A stretch of 55,601 nt of DNA from a virus (IMGVR_UViG_3300050821_007131:1-55601), one strand, 5' to 3'. Numbered from the stretch's first letter, positions 33,804-42,091 are shown. Notes: generated by a model not told the origin, from the sequence alone. Made by a program: numbers and translations.

Positions 33804-35038
33804 AACGCATAACTGTCCAAAACGTCAAAACGATCAGTGACTGCAATTTAGATCTCAATGGCTCTACCGCTATAGTAACCGCAGGGAATAACAAAGGTAA
33901 AACATCTCTACTTCGATCGTTAATGGATCGAATGAGAAGTATAAAACCAGAACGTATTTTGCGTCAAGGAGAGAAAGACGGGTTTTATGAAATGGAGTTG
34001 ACTACAGGAGAAAAATTTCGTTGGCAGTTTGAAGATAAACCATCTGGACTAAAAGAAAAGCTTATCTTCATAACAGAAAAGAATATCCCTGCATCGCTTA
34101 CAAAGGAAATAAGTTCTTTCTATTTCCCGAAAGTCTTCGATGTAGATTCTTTTTTAGAGCAAACTCCAGCATTAAAGAAAAAGCAATTAGAAAAAATTGC
34201 CGGTATCGATTTTACGGAAATCGACAGGCTGATAAAAGAGGCGAGAGAAAATCGTGCATACCTTAATAAAAAGGTTGCGGAAGATTACGCAAAGCTTGGT
34301 ACATATGATCCAAAGCTTGGCTTAACACCTGACCCAACAATCGAATCTGTTAGAACAGAACTGGCAATGGTCAGTACGCATAATGAAAAGATAAAGGGAT
34401 TCAAACTTCGTTTAACTGAAAAGGAATCATCTTTATCTAAATGCAAGCAAAGAATTTCGGTTCTTAAGAAAGAGTTAGAAGAAGCTGAGCAAGAAGCAAT
34501 GCAACTAGAGACGGATATTGATAAAGGGAATAACATCTTGAAGGATGAAAAATGGCAACCAAAAGATGAAAGTTTCGTCAACGACCTCAACCTTAAAATC
34601 GGTGCTCTTGTAAAGAAGAATAAATCGATTGAAGAAAACCAAAAGGCATTTGAACAGCAAAAAACATACGACAAAACAGTCGAGAATCAAAAGATTGCAG
34701 AAAACGAAGTCAAAAAATTGGAAGAATCAAAAACGGATTCTATAAAAAATGCATCTTCTTTACCAGAAGGATTTGGTTTTTCTGACGAAGGCATTACATA
34801 CAACGGATTCGAATTCACAAAAGAACAACTAAGTCAGTCCAAGATATATATAGCTGCATTAAAGCTTGCTACATTGGGTCTTGGCGAAGTTCGATCTATT
34901 CATTTTGATGCAGCAGCTTTGGATAAAAATTCATTACAAGAAATTCTTTCTTGGGCAAATGAAAATGATCTGCAATTGCTAATTGAGCGACCAGATTATG
35001 AAGGCGGAGAAATTGAATATCAAATTATCGAAAACTAA
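33788..35038 (+). CDS. SMC/RecF-like ATPase, 416 aa
   Basis: The N terminus (RITVQNVKTISDCNLDLNG) and Walker A AGNNKGKTSLL near residues 37-47 are typical of SMC/RecF/RecN N-terminal ATPase halves. A coiled coil spans about residues 190-320. The C-terminal part is short and lacks an obvious signature motif or Walker B, so the ATPase may be incomplete or degenerate, as in phage SbcC-like variants. It lies between the annealase and DnaA-like genes, suggesting a role in DNA end processing or repair. Confidence 0.65.
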   Translation: MASKIKRITVQNVKTISDCNLDLNGSTAIVTAGNNKGKTSLLRSLMDRMRSIKPERILRQGEKDGFYEMELTTGEKFRWQFEDKPSGLKEKLIFITEKNIPASLTKEISSFYFPKVFDVDSFLEQTPALKKKQLEKIAGIDFTEIDRLIKEARENRAYLNKKVAEDYAKLGTYDPKLGLTPDPTIESVRTELAMVSTHNEKIKGFKLRLTEKESSLSKCKQRISVLKKELEEAEQEAMQLETDIDKGNNILKDEKWQPKDESFVNDLNLKIGALVKKNKSIEENQKAFEQQKTYDKTVENQKIAENEVKKLEESKTDSIKNASSLPEGFGFSDEGITYNGFEFTKEQLSQSKIYIAALKLATLGLGEVRSIHFDAAALDKNSLQEILSWANENDLQLLIERPDYEGGEIEYQIIEN

Positions 35039-35646
35039 TGACAGAAAGACGTTATTATAAGAGATGGTTGCCTTGGGAAATAATGTATCTGACAATGAAC
35101 TACGAAAAGTTAGATCATTCTGAAATTGCAAATCATCTCAAAAGAAAAGTAGATTCGATAAGAAGCAAAGCGGATGAATTAGGAATACAATTGAGTAAAG
35201 AAGAAGTTGAAAAGAGACGTAGAAAGGGATTTGAGAAATACTTAGAAGAAAGAAAAGTAAAAAGAATATTCAAAGGATATAATATAAACTCAATTGTATT
35301 TCTTTCATATCTGGAAAAACAAAAATATTACAAAACAAGAATCCTACCTCTTGAAACTGTTTGGAATGATATTTGTGAATCAATGGGTGTAGACCCAGTA
35401 TTCGCAAGAAGTAAATCAAGAAAAAGAGAATTTAGTTTTTGTCGACAGATTTTTTGTTACATAATTAAACGAAATTACGGCAACAAATATTCATTAGATG
35501 ATATTGCTTCTTTCATTGGGAGAGAGGATCATACAACGGCGATGCATGGTATAAAAGTAATAAGGGACGGTATAAAATCCAAAGACCCTCAATTTTTAAA
35601 AGAGTGGTATCTGTTCTTAAGTAAAACGAAAATTTACAAAGCGTGA
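35038..35646 (+). CDS. HTH-DnaA domain IV fusion, 202 aa
   Basis: Residues 8-50 (RWLPWEIMYLTMNYEKLDHSEIANHL) look like a SANT/Myb-like HTH. Residues about 125-180 match DnaA domain IV: SRKREFSFCRQIF and the signature GREDHTTAMHGIKVI, the DnaA-box-binding helix-turn-helix. There is no AAA+ domain between them. So it should bind DnaA boxes or a phage origin without ATPase remodelling: an origin-recognition or anti-initiator role. It is coupled to both neighbours by overlapping codons. Confidence 0.7.
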   Translation: MTERRYYKRWLPWEIMYLTMNYEKLDHSEIANHLKRKVDSIRSKADELGIQLSKEEVEKRRRKGFEKYLEERKVKRIFKGYNINSIVFLSYLEKQKYYKTRILPLETVWNDICESMGVDPVFARSKSRKREFSFCRQIFCYIIKRNYGNKYSLDDIASFIGREDHTTAMHGIKVIRDGIKSKDPQFLKEWYLFLSKTKIYKA

Positions 35647-36188
35647 CTCACAATCAATTGGAATTTTGTGTAATGGATGTTAGGAATATTTTATCTTGTC
35701 TTGGCGAAAATTTAACAAGAGACGGCTTATTAGATACACCAAGAAGGCATATTCGATATCTTAATGAATTCTTAACTCCCAAAGAATTCGAGTTTACTAC
35801 TTTCGAAGAAAATCATAACGAAATGGTTGTCGTTCAAGATATTGATTTCTATTCTCTATGTGAACATCATATCTTACCTTTCTTTGGCAAAGCATCTATC
35901 GCATATATCCCAAGCGGTACAATAGTGGGGTTGAGTAAGCTTCCCAGAACTGTTGAAATGTTTTCTCATCGACTACAAAATCAAGAACGAATAACTACGC
36001 AAGTCGCTGATTTTATCAATGACAAATTGAATCCTAAAGGAGTTGGCGTTATCCTTAAGGCACGACATATGTGTATGGAGATGCGCGGCGTATGTAAGCC
36101 GGGCGCAATAACCACAACAAGCGCGATGCGTGGTGTTTTTTCTGAAGACATAAACGCGCGTCAAGAATTTTTAAACTTGATAAAATGA
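35643..36188 (+). CDS. folE: GTP cyclohydrolase I
   Basis: GTG start at 35643 overlapping the previous stop (GTGA). Zinc and active-site motifs are present: YSLCEHHILPFFG with Cys and His, and HMCMEMRG with the second zinc Cys. 181 aa is normal length. FolE opens GTP to 7,8-dihydroneopterin triphosphate, the first step to 7-deazaguanines (and to folate). With queD, queE and the queC-like gene downstream the 7-deazaguanine route is clearly meant. Confidence 0.93.
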   Translation: MTHNQLEFCVMDVRNILSCLGENLTRDGLLDTPRRHIRYLNEFLTPKEFEFTTFEENHNEMVVVQDIDFYSLCEHHILPFFGKASIAYIPSGTIVGLSKLPRTVEMFSHRLQNQERITTQVADFINDKLNPKGVGVILKARHMCMEMRGVCKPGAITTTSAMRGVFSEDINARQEFLNLIK

Positions 36189-36631
36189 ATTCAAAAATAA
36201 TCAGACATCGGTATAAAAATGGAATCATTTGTGAAGAAGTTATTTCTGATACTGATTTAGAAAAAGAAAGATTGATTATATTTTCGGATGAAAGTCATCC
36301 AGAAAGAAATGGAGTTTATAAAGAAACTGGAATAATTGGGTCTATAAAATTTTGTGGTGATTTGTCAGATAATAAAAACGACTTAAACATAAAACCTCTC
36401 ACAATGAAAGACGAACAATTAAACGTTGGCAATAACCTACGTGCAAGAATGGTTTCTTTGAGATCTTACATCGAGCAAGTAAAATGCGGTTTCGTAACTT
36501 TTGAGATCAAGGACAGAATGATGTCTGGAGAAATGAACAAATTTTTCCCTTACGATCAGGCCCGCGCTCAGTTTATCAGAAATCTGGAAGCAGAGTTGGT
36601 TAAATTGGAAGAAGAATACAATTCTTTATGA
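36185..36631 (+). CDS. Hypothetical protein in the deazaguanine operon, 148 aa
   Basis: Two parts can be seen: residues 1-70 beta-rich (KERLIIFSDESHPERNGVY) and residues 73-148 helical (NNLRARMVSLRSYIEQVKCG, ending in a coil). The second part could start on its own at 36404. ATGA overlaps link it to folE and to the dpdA-like gene, so it is co-translated with the modification enzymes. Role unknown. Confidence 0.6.
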   Translation: MNSKIIRHRYKNGIICEEVISDTDLEKERLIIFSDESHPERNGVYKETGIIGSIKFCGDLSDNKNDLNIKPLTMKDEQLNVGNNLRARMVSLRSYIEQVKCGFVTFEIKDRMMSGEMNKFFPYDQARAQFIRNLEAELVKLEEEYNSL

Positions 36632-37446
36632 AGTATTTCGCCGCCGTTGTTACAGATGAGGAGGTGAGCGCTTGCGTTGCGCTCCCTCCATATCGTATCC
36701 TATGTAGCTATTGGACTTTTCGAAAACAGATGAAATTAATCCAGTCTTATGTTGAAAAAGGGTATGAATTGTTCTTGGATTCCGGTGCGTTCAGTGCGGC
36801 CAACTCGGAAGCCAATATCAATTTGGACGACTATTGCCAGTATGTCCTGGAGAGCGGCGCAAGCATTTATGCAGGACTCGATGTTATCGGTGACCCAACG
36901 GCAACAATGTGCAACGTTCGATATATGGAAGAAAAATACGGGCTTAATCCTATCCCGACATTTCATATGGGAGGAAGACCAGATGAACTCAGAAACTTAT
37001 TTAGTTACCATTATATCGCTTTAGGCGGAATGGTCTTTAGTAGCGGTCGTGAAAGATATTGTGACGAAATCTGGTCCATTCTTTTAAAAGAAGCTCCAGG
37101 AATACGTGTGCATGGTTTTGGCATGACGAATATTGAATTAATGGAAAGATATCCTTGGTATAGTGTGGATAGCTCGACTTACAAAGATGGTCGTCGATTC
37201 GGACGCCCTAAGCTATTGCAACAGAATATGGAAATGATTCAAATCGATGAATCAGAATTCGGAGAGATTATGAAGAAGATGGGATATGAGAATATCGATG
37301 GAATGAAAGAAAACGAGAAGAAGAAATGGCGTTTTCTTATGGACCTTCACGGAGTCCAAGCATATAAAGTGTATGGAGCTCATTTGGCTGCACTTAATAA
37401 AACAAAGAAATTCGATTATTTAACTGCTCAGCATAAATTATTCTAA
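36628..37446 (+). CDS. dpdA: DpdA-like DNA guanine transglycosylase
   Basis: 272 aa, of the TGT/DpdA fold. FLDSGAFSA (Asp51) corresponds to the base-binding DSGGFQ motif of tRNA-guanine transglycosylase; GLDVIGDP, FHMGG and HGFGM are conserved turns; VDSSTY (Asp181) fits the nucleophile position. The zinc-binding Cys cluster of tRNA-modifying TGT is absent, as in DpdA. It should exchange guanine in phage DNA for a 7-deazaguanine base after replication. It lies between folE and queD in one operon. Subfamily not assigned. Confidence 0.85.
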   Translation: MKYFAAVVTDEEVSACVALPPYRILCSYWTFRKQMKLIQSYVEKGYELFLDSGAFSAANSEANINLDDYCQYVLESGASIYAGLDVIGDPTATMCNVRYMEEKYGLNPIPTFHMGGRPDELRNLFSYHYIALGGMVFSSGRERYCDEIWSILLKEAPGIRVHGFGMTNIELMERYPWYSVDSSTYKDGRRFGRPKLLQQNMEMIQIDESEFGEIMKKMGYENIDGMKENEKKKWRFLMDLHGVQAYKVYGAHLAALNKTKKFDYLTAQHKLF

Positions 37447-37447
37447 A

Positions 37448-37996
37448 ATGATAACAATTACGCGCTATCATGACATTTCAGCAGGACACAGAGTTTATGG
37501 CCATGAATCTAAATGTAAACATCTTCACGGCCATAATTACCGCATTCACTTTATGATAACGGCTCCTGAGCTAGATTCTACTGGACGTATTATTGACTTC
37601 AGCGTTATAAAATCCAAGCTTTGCGATTGGTTAGAGGAAAATTGGGATCACAAGACTTTATTATTTGAAAAAGATCCATTTTATATTTACTATATTAGTG
37701 AATTATGGAGAGATGATACAGAACCATCTTGGTCACCTGGAGGGATAATTGATGTCCCTTTCAACCCCACAGCGGAAAATATGGCAAAGTACCTTGTTGA
37801 AGTAATTGGCCCAAAACAATTAGAAGGAACAGGCTGTTCATTGATGGGAGCAAAAGTTGAAGAAACCGCAAAATGCAGTGCGACGTATTTGCGCCCAGAT
37901 CCTAAACTTATGGACAAGATTGAACAAATGATGACAGAAAAAATCGCAAATCCTTTAAAAGAATTATTTTCCAATATGTTAAAAGAAGAAGAATAA
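37448..37996 (+). CDS. queD: 6-carboxytetrahydropterin synthase (QueD)
   Basis: Zinc His residues lie in GHRVYGHESKCKHLHGHNY, with the catalytic Cys in SKCKH, and DHKTL plus KVEETAKCSA further on are the other family motifs. 182 aa, normal, with one internal insertion around YYISELWRDD. QueD makes 6-carboxy-5,6,7,8-tetrahydropterin from dihydroneopterin triphosphate, the substrate of QueE. One base separates it from the dpdA-like gene. Confidence 0.93.
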   Translation: MITITRYHDISAGHRVYGHESKCKHLHGHNYRIHFMITAPELDSTGRIIDFSVIKSKLCDWLEENWDHKTLLFEKDPFYIYYISELWRDDTEPSWSPGGIIDVPFNPTAENMAKYLVEVIGPKQLEGTGCSLMGAKVEETAKCSATYLRPDPKLMDKIEQMMTEKIANPLKELFSNMLKEEE

Positions 37997-38019
37997 AAAT
38001 AAATCAGTAAAATAATTTT

Positions 38020-38730
38020 ATGAAACAAGCCTGCATTCTCCTTCTATCTGGAGGTCAAGATTCGACAACATGCCTTTATTGGGCGAAAACGCAATTTGAA
38101 AAGATCTATCCTATTCTTTTCGATTATGGTCAAAAGCATAGATTAGAGATTCGATATGCATTAAAGAATGCATCAGATGCAGGAACAGAATCGCCGTATA
38201 TTATACCATGTTCTGGAGTATTTCCTGCAAACTCCAGCAGCCTAATCGACCACTCAATCGATCACAAGAAACAGCATTTAAGGAATACAGAACTACCAGC
38301 CAGCTTTACCCCAGGAAGAAATATGTTATTTCTTACGATGGCGGCAAGTTATGGTTTTTCTATTGGAGTTCACGATATTGTAACAGGGGTGTGTCAAACG
38401 GATTACAGTGGTTATCCCGATTGTCGTCAAAGCTTTATAAGTAGTATGGAAACTACCCTAGAATATGCAATGAATCCAGAATATACTTACGATAAGCCAT
38501 TCCATGATCCAATGTTCCAAATTCATACTCCGCTCATGCATATGACCAAGGCGCAAACATGGAAGATGGCAAAAGATTTGCGCTGTCTCGATATAATAAT
38601 CCAATATACGATGACGGATTACAATGGCGATCAAACGACAAATGAATGGGGAATGGGGACAGTTGATAATCCAGCAAGCGCTTTGAGAGCGAAAGGATAC
38701 TATGAAGCAAAGGAAAAAGGGTGGATATAA
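38020..38730 (+). CDS. queC: QueC-like PP-loop ATPase lacking the zinc cysteines
   Basis: PP-loop SGGQDST at residues 10-16, FTPGRNMLFLTMA near 90, and MTKAQTWKMAKDL near 175 identify QueC, which turns 7-carboxy-7-deazaguanine (CDG) into preQ0 via the amide ADG. In QueC the C-terminal TCYNG and CGxCxxC cysteines bind zinc. Here they read TDYNG (Asp200) and WGMGTVDN (about 210-217): all four Cys are gone. The enzyme may have a changed product, stop at the amide, or act only as a partner. Length is normal (236 aa). Confidence 0.82.
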   Translation: MKQACILLLSGGQDSTTCLYWAKTQFEKIYPILFDYGQKHRLEIRYALKNASDAGTESPYIIPCSGVFPANSSSLIDHSIDHKKQHLRNTELPASFTPGRNMLFLTMAASYGFSIGVHDIVTGVCQTDYSGYPDCRQSFISSMETTLEYAMNPEYTYDKPFHDPMFQIHTPLMHMTKAQTWKMAKDLRCLDIIIQYTMTDYNGDQTTNEWGMGTVDNPASALRAKGYYEAKEKGWI

Positions 38731-38763
38731 ATAAATAATTTCTTCCTAATTTATTTGTTTTAT

Positions 38764-38771
38764 TAGATTTG
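38764..38771 (+). promoter_or_regulatory. Possible -7 element before the HTH-KA gene
   Basis: TAGATTTG matches TAnnTTTG, in the 93-base gap after the QueC-like gene. A good -33 box is not seen at the right distance, so the call is weak. Confidence 0.3.
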
Positions 38772-38823
38772 TCTTGCATACCTTCAGATCTAATTCATAA
38801 AAAACTCTTTCAATTTATTTACA

Positions 38824-39378
38824 ATGGGAACAAAAGCTAAAGTTGATCCGGCAAAAGCCGAAGAGATCAAAAAGAAAAAAGAAGCAGAAGCGACTGCCGC
38901 TAAAGCTCAATCGAATCCTGCAGATGCGGTAAAAGACAACAGCCCGGATAAGTCAAAGGGAGAAGTTTTGCAGGAAGAAGGAAAGCTTGCAAAAGTTCGT
39001 CGGTTGCGCGCTGAAGGTTTTACGCGTGACCAGATTTTGAACGATCACAAGGACAATGAAGGTAATGCTTTTCACCCCACGACCGTTGCGATCCAGTGCG
39101 CGAATGTGGAAAAGAAAATGCTTAACGCATTGCCAGTAGACGCAACGGATGAAGAACGTTCGAAATGGTTGCCGCCAGCAAGGAAGCCAAGGCCGGTAAA
39201 AGAAGAAACGGCAGAAGAAAAAGCGGAAAAAGAAGCCGCCAAAGAAAAAGCCAAGGCCGATAAGATTGCGGCAAAAGAAGCAGCTAAGGCAGAAAAAGCG
39301 GCTGCAAAAAAGGCTGCACCGGCTCAGGCAACCGCGCCCGCACAGCCAGCAGAAACTCCAGCGACCGAAAAACCATAA
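38824..39378 (+). CDS. HTH protein with Lys/Ala-rich histone-like tail, 184 aa
   Basis: Residues about 55-100 (VRRLRAEGFTRDQILNDH, then HPTTVAIQCANVEKK) form a helix-turn-helix-like core related to the VYRQ family at 282, 53451 and 55307. Residues about 115-184 are a Lys/Ala/Pro tail (KAKADKIAAKEAAKAEKAAAKK) like histone H1 or bacterial DNA-compacting proteins. It sits inside the modification locus, between the queC-like gene and the transporter. It may package or mark phage DNA, or switch expression. Confidence 0.7.
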   Translation: MGTKAKVDPAKAEEIKKKKEAEATAAKAQSNPADAVKDNSPDKSKGEVLQEEGKLAKVRRLRAEGFTRDQILNDHKDNEGNAFHPTTVAIQCANVEKKMLNALPVDATDEERSKWLPPARKPRPVKEETAEEKAEKEAAKEKAKADKIAAKEAAKAEKAAAKKAAPAQATAPAQPAETPATEKP

Positions 39379-39383
39379 GAATA

Positions 39384-39905
39384 ATGAGTCGGGCATTAAC
39401 TCCTGCCCTATTAACTCTTTATCTGTTATCGTTCATAAGTGCCAATCTGTTAGTGAAACATTTTGGCGCTTATGGACTTTGGTTTTCTTCCTTATTTCTG
39501 ATTCCATTCGATTTTGTGATACGATGCTGGTTCCAAGAAAAATACGCAATCAAATTTTCCGCATTGCTTCTTGGCATGTTAGTATTGATAGCCTCCATTA
39601 TTACATATGCGTTAAACAAGAAGACGCTAAGCATAGCAATGGGAAGTATCATAGGGTTTGCATTAGGACAATTTGGCGCTACCGTTTTATATCAGCTTGT
39701 GAAAAAATCAAAATCTTGGTTCTTAAAAGTAAATAGTAGCGATCTAGTTGCAATAGTGGGGGATAGCTGCATATTTCAATTGATCGCTTTCTCGCATATC
39801 AACCCTATTGTAACCACGGGGCAAATTCTCATCAAATTTATTGGCGGTCTTTTTTGGTTCTATATCCTTTTTAAACGAGTCAAAATTCAACGATGGTTGA
39901 CGTAA
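39384..39905 (+). CDS. Queuosine precursor transporter-like (YhhQ/VUT)
   Basis: 173 aa with six predicted membrane helices. Family motifs: SANLLVKHFG near the start, FDFVIRCWFQEKY in the second helix, and SSDLVAIVGDSCIFQ in the fifth. YhhQ-type (VUT) proteins import preQ0/preQ1-type bases. The gene lies between the queC-like gene and queE, so it should feed the same base pool by salvage, in parallel to synthesis. Confidence 0.85.
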   Translation: MSRALTPALLTLYLLSFISANLLVKHFGAYGLWFSSLFLIPFDFVIRCWFQEKYAIKFSALLLGMLVLIASIITYALNKKTLSIAMGSIIGFALGQFGATVLYQLVKKSKSWFLKVNSSDLVAIVGDSCIFQLIAFSHINPIVTTGQILIKFIGGLFWFYILFKRVKIQRWLT

Positions 39906-40162
39906 GCATTCAGCAAGATCATCTTTACGAAACTTTTAAAATAACAGAGGATCAGTGCGATTATTTGCATGATCTTATCGATAAATATTTAGACGAGATT
40001 GATAAAGAAAGAATACCAGTATGTTCTGACGGTATAATTTCCACATTCTTGTCTTTCGCCAGAACAGAACAAGAGCAAGCGTATTGTTTATATCAGGCTG
40101 GTATCTTTCAGCAGATTTGTAACCAAATCGAAGAAAATCTAAAACTTGCGGAGGGAAATTGA
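39893..40162 (+). CDS. Hypothetical protein in the deazaguanine locus, 89 aa
   Basis: Small acidic helical protein (ITEDQCDYLHDLIDKYLDEIDKERI) without a recognised family. It overlaps the transporter gene by 13 bases and ends one base before queE, so it is translated with them. It may be an accessory of the modification system. Confidence 0.6.
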   Translation: MVDVSIQQDHLYETFKITEDQCDYLHDLIDKYLDEIDKERIPVCSDGIISTFLSFARTEQEQAYCLYQAGIFQQICNQIEENLKLAEGN

Positions 40163-40163
40163 A

Positions 40164-40874
40164 ATGAAAAATAACTCATTAATCGTTTCTGAGGTTTTTT
40201 ATAGCATCCAGGGGGAAGGGATAACAATGGGTGTGCCTGCTGTATTTATTCGATTAGGTGGGTGCAATTTGCTTTGCGATGGCGAATGGAGATGCGATAC
40301 GATTGAGGTCTGGAAGAAAGGGAAATCAATTGAGTTTGAGAATATCCTGCCAAAAGAATGCGTAAACGCAATTCTGAAAGGGGCGCATATTATTTTCACT
40401 GGCGGAGAACCATTATTGCAGCAATGGGCTATTTTTGATTTTATTCAATATCTTAAAGCTCGTTTAGTTTTAGATTTAATAATTGAGATAGAAACAAATG
40501 GAACAATCTTGCCATGTTGGTCATTAAGATACACAGTAAATTACTGGAATTGTAGTCCAAAACTCGGAAATAGCGGAATCGATTATGAAAAAAGAGTTAA
40601 TGAAATTGCATTAGACTCGATACAAAATTCCGGATCAAAAGGACAACATGAAACAATTTTCAAATTCGTTATCTCCAAAAAAGAGGATTGGTTAGAAATT
40701 CAAGACGAATACTCATTTTTACCTTTAAATAAAATCGTCCTAATGCCTGCTGGCGATACTCAGGAAATGCTTAATATTACCCGGCCAATGGTAATGGAAC
40801 TTTGCAAAGTTACCGGATGTAGGTATAGCGACAGATTACATATTGTTGCATGGAATAAAAAAACTGGAGTATGA
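40164..40874 (+). CDS. queE: 7-carboxy-7-deazaguanine synthase (QueE)
   Basis: Start at 40164 (ATG right after the previous TGA). Radical SAM enzyme: cluster cysteines Cys34, Cys38 and Cys44 in GCNLLCDGEWRCDT, GGEP in FTGGEPLL and IEIETNGT confirm QueE. The spacing is CX3CX5C instead of the usual CX3CX2C, with three extra residues between the second and third Cys. It converts 6-carboxytetrahydropterin to CDG, the substrate of QueC. 236 aa is normal. Confidence 0.9.
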   Translation: MKNNSLIVSEVFYSIQGEGITMGVPAVFIRLGGCNLLCDGEWRCDTIEVWKKGKSIEFENILPKECVNAILKGAHIIFTGGEPLLQQWAIFDFIQYLKARLVLDLIIEIETNGTILPCWSLRYTVNYWNCSPKLGNSGIDYEKRVNEIALDSIQNSGSKGQHETIFKFVISKKEDWLEIQDEYSFLPLNKIVLMPAGDTQEMLNITRPMVMELCKVTGCRYSDRLHIVAWNKKTGV

Positions 40875-41044: not shown

Positions 41045-42091
41045 ATGCAAGCACGAATTCGAAAGGACGAACTTATTACTTTTAAGGCTGAAGCTTCAGA
41101 TATAATACTTGGTAAAGAATCATTACCGGTTTTAGTTTTTTTACGCATTCAGATCGAGGGGGATTTTGCAACGATCATAAAGAGCAATATGCGTAGCTTT
41201 ATTGTTAAGACAATTCCGAACGACAGTGAAGATTGTCTTTTTTTAGTTCATGAGCAAACGTTATACGATTTTTTAGAAGCCGCTGACACAGATTTTATTT
41301 CTTTCGAATCAATCGGAACAAGAATTTTAATAAGTAGTGGCAGAGCAAAAATTTATAGTCCTACGGAAATGCCGCATATCTATCCTAAGATCGATATCGA
41401 AAATTCAGAATGGACATTACTACCTAAAACAGCGACATCAACGGCTGGTATCTGCTCTAAGATCATTTTGAGTACGGATTTAATGGTTAATGCTCAAAGT
41501 CATGTCTTCATAGGGAAGCACTTTGCCGCTGGCGCAGATGGTAGTATAGGGTACTATCAAGCTATTGCAGAACAAACGCCAATACTTTGCCTTCGTAAAG
41601 AAGTTGCTCAGTGTGTTAGCAAAATGAGCAACTGCCAAGTTTCGTACAACGCCTCTTATGACCTTTTTAAATCCGGTCAAACGTTATTCGGTTTTTCGAA
41701 AAGCGAAATAGGTTTTTTTGATGCGATGGGTGGCTTGTTTAAAGGAAAACTAGATGACAAATGGCCTCAATTCAGTTGCTCTAAAAATAATATACTTCGA
41801 TTTACAAACCTTTGTATTGCACGCGCGCCTAAAGCCAACGGAGCAACGTTTGAAATAAAAGAGGAAAACAATCTTTATTTGGAGTTAATTGTGCCTGAAG
41901 AAAATTTAGACATACATCTCGACATTCAAGTAAAGGGAAAAGAAGCAAAGTTTAAATTCAATCCCACTCTTCTGGCTAATTTATTGAAAGTTGTCCCGAG
42001 TGAAGATGTGTTTTTTTATCCCGGCAATCATCAATATTTCATCAGCGATCTAGATAGGAGTTATGTCGCCGTGATAATGGAAACAAATTAA
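41045..42091 (+). CDS. Beta-clamp-like protein (DnaN-like), 348 aa
   Basis: Weak but recurrent DnaN features: an N-terminal domain (LPVLVFLRIQIEGDFATIIKSNMRSF), and a C-terminal strand set (DVFFYPGNHQYFISDLDRSYVAVIM) that mimics the clamp end with its MPMR-type motif. Length fits. It lies among replication genes, but no DNA polymerase III alpha or other replicative polymerase is seen, so it would have to load or replace the host clamp. Alternative: unrelated replication-associated protein. Confidence 0.5.
   Translation: MQARIRKDELITFKAEASDIILGKESLPVLVFLRIQIEGDFATIIKSNMRSFIVKTIPNDSEDCLFLVHEQTLYDFLEAADTDFISFESIGTRILISSGRAKIYSPTEMPHIYPKIDIENSEWTLLPKTATSTAGICSKIILSTDLMVNAQSHVFIGKHFAAGADGSIGYYQAIAEQTPILCLRKEVAQCVSKMSNCQVSYNASYDLFKSGQTLFGFSKSEIGFFDAMGGLFKGKLDDKWPQFSCSKNNILRFTNLCIARAPKANGATFEIKEENNLYLELIVPEENLDIHLDIQVKGKEAKFKFNPTLLANLLKVVPSEDVFFYPGNHQYFISDLDRSYVAVIMETN

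Follow-up and report, generated by a model that had tools for sequence, protein, structure and literature searches.

Among the phages that carry 7-deazaguanines in their DNA, those of group 2 in Hutinet 2019, such as CAjan and Rosebush, encode FolE, QueD, QueE, QueC and DpdA, have neither a GATase nor QueF, and carry dPreQ0, the deoxynucleoside of 7-cyano-7-deazaguanine (preQ0) (PMC6884629). In CAjan approximately 32% of the Gs are present as dPreQ0, and deletion of dpdA abolishes both this modification and the protection against restriction (PMC6884629). Here we describe a locus of this kind at positions 35643-40874 of the 55.6-kb virus contig IMGVR_UViG_3300050821_007131, the entire length of which (55,601 nucleotides) is referred to as the window and provides all coordinates, with emphasis on its QueC, which is devoid of the cysteines of the zinc motif. 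The 7-deazaguanine pathway of phages is already established, and one more member adds little. QueC converts the acid into the nitrile with the use of ATP and ammonia; a natural and conserved QueC without the zinc motif, which bacteria seem to need for queuosine, makes the role of the zinc directly testable.

The locus contains homologues of folE, queD, queE and queC, together with a DpdA that resembles tRNA-guanine transglycosylase (TGT) (phrog_887, TGT fold, residues D51, H162 and D181). Searches of the window, a contig that may be incomplete, for a GATase (PF00117) or a QueF above cut-off, either of which would have pointed to G+ or preQ1, found none (ArcS was not among the models used); the sole protein to respond to the QueF model was FolE, below the cut-off. 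This absence favors preQ0 over G+ or preQ1 as the base, and the gene set as a whole fits group 2. The locus therefore belongs to the dPreQ0 system already known from phages. A route from GTP to preQ0, followed by insertion into DNA by DpdA, had been proposed in an earlier, sequence-only reading of this stretch, and is supported by the family matches, the TGT fold, the catalytic Asp pair and the CAjan-like gene content.

In CAjan (Seuratvirus), folE, queD, queE, queC, dpdA and a ‘putative preQ0 transporter’ are likewise clustered beside clamp and replication genes, with several small open reading frames (ORFs) of unknown function interspersed, so that neither the transporter nor the interspersed small ORFs of the window are new. 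The two loci differ in gene order, in QueE (CX3CX2C in CAjan) and in QueC, which in CAjan keeps TCYNG...GCGECPAC. Identities between the two amount to 40% for QueC and 37% for DpdA, and the window QueD has a C-terminal extension compared to CAjan QueD. VpKK5 shares the gene set and the replication-module setting. Cellulophaga phage phiSM (NC_020860), a phage of Bacteroidota, also carries dpdA, queC, queD and queE, as well as two genes annotated as GTP cyclohydrolase; its QueE is 49% identical to the window QueE and has a Cys motif stretched in a similar way, whereas its QueC retains the cysteines and its DpdA is of another subtype.

The queC gene (38020..38730, + strand) encodes a protein that exceeds the cut-off of TIGR00364 (188.6 bits, cut-off 150.3) as well as that of the Pfam QueC model, and that lacks the C(x)8CxxCxxC zinc motif. 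Alignment with QueC of CAjan, VpKK5 and E. coli shows that all four zinc cysteines (C188, C197, C200, and C203 in E. coli) are gone, the canonical TCYNG...GCGECPAC being replaced by TDYNG...GTVDNPAS. This had gone unmentioned in the sequence-only reading. A QueC study from 2026 considers the Cys motif to be one of two hallmarks of the enzyme, and zinc to be required (PMC13329287). As the window QueC fails one tested canonical hallmark, we class it as a new variant of QueC. It does retain SGGQDS, YGQxHxxE, RN, YPDC, the Lys and the essential Tyr, and thereby the residues named as catalytic (Tyr35, Arg99, Tyr131, Tyr189; SGGxDS, YxQxHxxE, YPDC) in the same study (PMC13329287). Compared to canonical QueC (PF06508 cluster 1; E. 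coli P0AG67, B. subtilis 3BL5, Erwinia 2PG3), the fold, SGGxDS, YxQxHxxE, RN, YPDC, Lys165, and Tyr189 are shared; the difference lies in C(x)8CxxCxxC, in place of which the variant has an invariant motif without cysteines that reads Asp at C188 and Asn at C200. Structural modeling with AlphaFold (predicted local distance difference test, pLDDT, 92) yields the QueC structures 2pg3 and 3bl5 as best matches in the PDB, and places the former zinc region confidently without a metal.

A search with a DNA pattern for TDY(N/D)G-x4-NEWG gave 112 matches in the collection of viruses and 7 in that of bacterial and archaeal genomes. The alignment of the QueC variant comprises 119 rows, of which 93 are distinct. 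C188 is replaced by Asp and C200 by Asn in every row (119/119 for both), C203 by Thr or Ser, and the position of C197 is variable. The replacement motif, TDY(N/D)G-x4-NEWGxG-x3-N-x-A-(S/T)-x2-(L)R-x2-G, is invariant and free of cysteines, and from this motif to the C-terminus no Cys is present in 113 of the 115 full variant proteins. SGGxDS, YxQxHxxE (with Y35, Q37, H39 and E42), R99, N100, YPDC, K165, and Y189 are likewise invariant across all rows. The VPxRN motif is relaxed to (T/V)-x-x-RN, with V96 read as Thr in 101 of 119 rows and P97 mostly as Ala or Ser. Aligned cysteines are present in all eight other phage QueC proteins compared (CAjan, VpKK5, phiSM, Ssp-JY38, S0112, BcepGomr and two faecal scaffolds). 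Two kinds of C-terminal query were run against 50,697 named phage records; the matches listed were all at most 50% identical and the variant was not seen.

The association of the variant with the modification genes is constant. In the 59 distinct viral loci that offer at least 1.5 kb of flanking sequence on both sides, dpdA, folE, queD, and queE accompany the variant queC without exception (59/59), and wherever both dpdA and queC are present they lie on one strand (109/109 loci) and usually abut. As judged from the QueC alignment, the zinc-less QueC is a conserved variant and not a damaged gene; it is possible that it has been noticed in print before. Annotation based on motifs can mislabel such genes.

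Bacterial members of the variant family bear on its product. In eight Bacteroidota genomes (G001-G004, G006, G061, G076, and G101) searches with PF06508 identified the zinc-less form as the sole full-length QueC, and these genomes also carry QueD and QueF (8/8), QueA (7/8), and TGT (6/8). In most cases the variant gene has queF as a neighbor. In records from Marinoscillum, Flammeovirgaceae, and Rhodothermaeota the variant queC directly precedes a short queF, the product of which exceeds the NCBIfam preQ1-synthase cut-off at locus L125, and in genome G101 it is found near queE and queF. QueF needs preQ0, the nitrile; as no other full-length QueC is present, the simplest reading is that the variant makes preQ0. 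Of the 98 genomes from the Bacteroidota order to which G004 belongs, only six encode a full-length QueC, in each case the zinc-less form. When the exact DNA pattern was scanned for across the phylum, 1 of 395 genomes matched, which is an underestimate since the exact pattern misses forms with one extra loop residue (such as L144 and L145).

Taken together, we consider it quite likely that the locus represents the known group-2 pathway with a conserved QueC variant that has lost the four-Cys zinc site and still makes preQ0. The C-terminal lobe of the enzyme would be built around the invariant Cys-free motif instead of the zinc site, and the variant would perform both ATP-dependent steps, from 7-carboxy-7-deazaguanine (CDG) to the amide (7-amido-7-deazaguanine, ADG) and on to the nitrile preQ0, which DpdA would place in the phage DNA, where it may serve against restriction. 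It is also likely that these proteins, mostly from uncultured phages and a few Bacteroidota, constitute a zinc-independent QueC subfamily that makes preQ0 with a standard active site, in which case the zinc of canonical QueC would be structural, not catalytic. Several points weigh against this interpretation: zinc is held to be required and the Cys motif to be a hallmark of QueC (PMC13329287), the VPxRN motif is loosened in the variant, a different metal could be bound by the Asp, Asn, and Glu residues of the new motif, and the bacterial genomes are metagenome-assembled genomes or drafts in which a canonical QueC could be missed. Zinc-independent counterparts of the FolE2-for-FolE type, known from Zur regulons (PMC6103462), similarly perform a step without the usual zinc ligands; unlike these, the QueC variant keeps the fold and the active site, with only the zinc site replaced, and no link to zinc regulation was seen. 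Avoidance of zinc throughout the pathway was considered and rejected, as the zinc ligand motifs of FolE and QueD are intact.

The lost zinc site surrounds the essential Tyr189 (PMC13329287), and its loss could therefore impair the second half-reaction. The variant would then stop at the amide, converting CDG to ADG, and DpdA would insert the latter, so that the phage DNA would contain dADG, the deoxynucleoside of ADG and a known phage base (PMC6884629); neither a GATase nor QueF is encoded downstream. We regard this as unlikely, as the residues of the substrate and ATP pockets are all invariant, and as the bacterial variants, next to queF and with no other full-length QueC, would have to supply QueF with preQ0, although phage and bacterial variants might still behave differently.

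A role for the genes mainly in boosting the queuosine precursor for host tRNA, rather than in modification of the phage DNA, has been suggested for phages with preQ0 genes that lack DpdA (PMC6884629), and the transporter in the locus would agree with it. However, the window encodes a DpdA with intact catalytic residues and no QueF, and DpdA is present in all 59 comparable viral loci, which makes such a role very unlikely. QueC scaffolds have also been repurposed (PMC13329287), and Cap9 (9nto) is the best non-QueC match to the modeled fold, but it appears highly improbable that the variant acts on a protein, as a CDG ligase like Cap9 or QatC, instead of synthesizing preQ0: the match to Cap9 is far weaker (E 9e-8 versus 6e-19), no CD-NTase or QatABD neighbors were noticed, the linkage to dpdA, folE, queD and queE, or to queF, is constant, and Cap9 retains the Cys motif while QatC lacks YxQxHxxE, VPxRN, and YPDC (PMC13329287), the reverse of what the variant displays. 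That the missing cysteines reflect decay of a dying QueC, with host preQ0 entering through the nearby YhhQ-like protein, is scarcely credible, as the invariance of the replacement motif over 93 distinct proteins speaks for selection, the transporter occurs in only 7 loci, and bacteria, too, seem to rely on the zinc-less form.

In a QueC tree calculated from all columns, a branch with support of 97/81 separates the zinc-less proteins from the rest, and the bacterial sequences fall into two separate groups among those of the phages. This placement makes it probable that queC genes have moved between phages and bacteria, and the variant points to an exchange of genes of the queuosine pathway between phages and Bacteroidota. 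That the zinc-less form arose only once is not claimed, as it forms one clade in only 25% of the bootstrap trees when the columns of the C-terminal motif are left out.

All six genes named in the sequence-only reading, folE, dpdA, queD, queC, queE and a transporter gene of the Vut_1/YhhQ type, were confirmed by family searches as open frames between 35643 and 40874, all on the + strand. The genes and ORFs of the locus lie in a tight run that is nearly gapless (spacings of -4, -4, -4, +1, +23, +93, +5, -13, and -17 bases). The folE gene (35643..36188, + strand), with a GTG start, encodes a GTP cyclohydrolase I (TIGR00063, 214 bits, cut-off 181.6; phrog_2197, 2.8e-62) that retains the zinc ligand motifs CEHH and MCMEMRG. 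In several related phages approximately 110 additional amino acids precede FolE, apparently as an in-frame fusion (L008 2279-3118, L009 4642-5538, L010 6157-7026), and this extension resembles a phosphoribosyltransferase (WGVPRGGQVVAG...VDDLIDSG).

The assignment of dpdA (36628..37446, + strand) as DNA-guanine transglycosylase is based on phrog_887 (7.5e-41), on a TGT-like AlphaFold model and on invariant residues; the NCBIfam DpdA model gives a weak score of 16 bits. The model has a pLDDT of 90.7 (46 aligned relatives), and its 23 best PDB matches are all tRNA-guanine transglycosylases. D51-S-G-A-F55, H162, and D181-S182 are invariant in the alignment of 46 relatives, with H162 as the putative equivalent of His196 of phage 9g DpdA. 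The queD gene (37448..37996, + strand) encodes a 6-carboxytetrahydropterin synthase (PF01242, 2.9e-24; phrog_2389, 1.3e-45).

The queE gene (40164..40874, + strand; phrog_2076, 2e-50) encodes a radical S-adenosylmethionine CDG synthase. Based on alignment with the start of a 56%-identical relative in L007, the ATG at 40164 is a more likely start than the listed TTG at 40146, and with this start the overlap with the ORF at 39893 disappears. The cysteines of the radical motif are spaced CX3CX5C in the window instead of CX3CX2C; in the relatives L008, L009, L010, and L032 the third Cys follows as CX3CX6C, X16C or X18C, and many other loci of the set have a second, shorter type of QueE with the motif GC(K/S)xxxAC...GIxCDT. 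The stretched motif (CX3CX5-18C) was rejected as a unique trait, since phiSM also carries a CX3CX6C form.

The sequence-only reading had further suggested that two small ORFs and a ‘KA-rich HTH’ protein may be new accessory parts of the locus, a suggestion that found no support. The ORF at 36185..36631 (+ strand, 148 amino acids), which overlaps its neighbors by 4 bp, has no Pfam, PHROG or NCBIfam match worth naming, and the one at 39893..40162 (+ strand, 89 amino acids) has no family match. Neither has relatives among 2.9 million viral contigs at a sensitivity suited to close relatives, and both places are taken by unrelated small ORFs in L006 and L007, the nearest among the viral contigs; a role as accessory parts was therefore rejected. 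No model of Pfam, PHROG or NCBIfam matches the K/A-rich protein (38824..39378, + strand), and its 47-amino acid core (GKLAKVRRLRAEGFTRDQILNDHKDNEGNAFHP...) is kept only in L007, at the same position and with 66% identity over 47 amino acids.

The transporter candidate, a Vut_1/YhhQ-like membrane protein (39384..39905, + strand), exceeds the cut-off of Pfam PF02592 (34.3 bits, cut-off 27.2) and stays below that of the NCBIfam YhhQ model TIGR00697 (27.6 bits versus 50.95). Relatives were found in L007, L023, L060, and L083, with the copies of L007 and L083 under the Pfam cut-off. From its family membership we would guess that the protein probably imports extra preQ0. It is found in only 7 related loci, at varying positions, and seems to be an optional part.

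The presence of genes for terminase, portal, tail sheath and tape measure identifies the contig as that of a contractile-tailed phage, the host of which may, at a guess from its relatives and from the weakness of the Shine-Dalgarno sequences that precede the genes, belong to the Bacteroidota. No named phage gave a megablast match to the 33-44 kb region. The locus resides in a replication module and is flanked by genes for a DnaA-C-like protein, a sliding clamp, a helicase and a prim-pol. Downstream of queE lies the gene for the sliding-clamp-like protein (41045..42091, + strand; PF00712, 6.7e-07; phrog_947, 1.4e-10). Directly upstream of folE, with a 4-bp overlap, a protein with a DnaA C-terminal DNA-binding domain is encoded (35038-35646), and L006 and L007 encode related proteins at the corresponding position.

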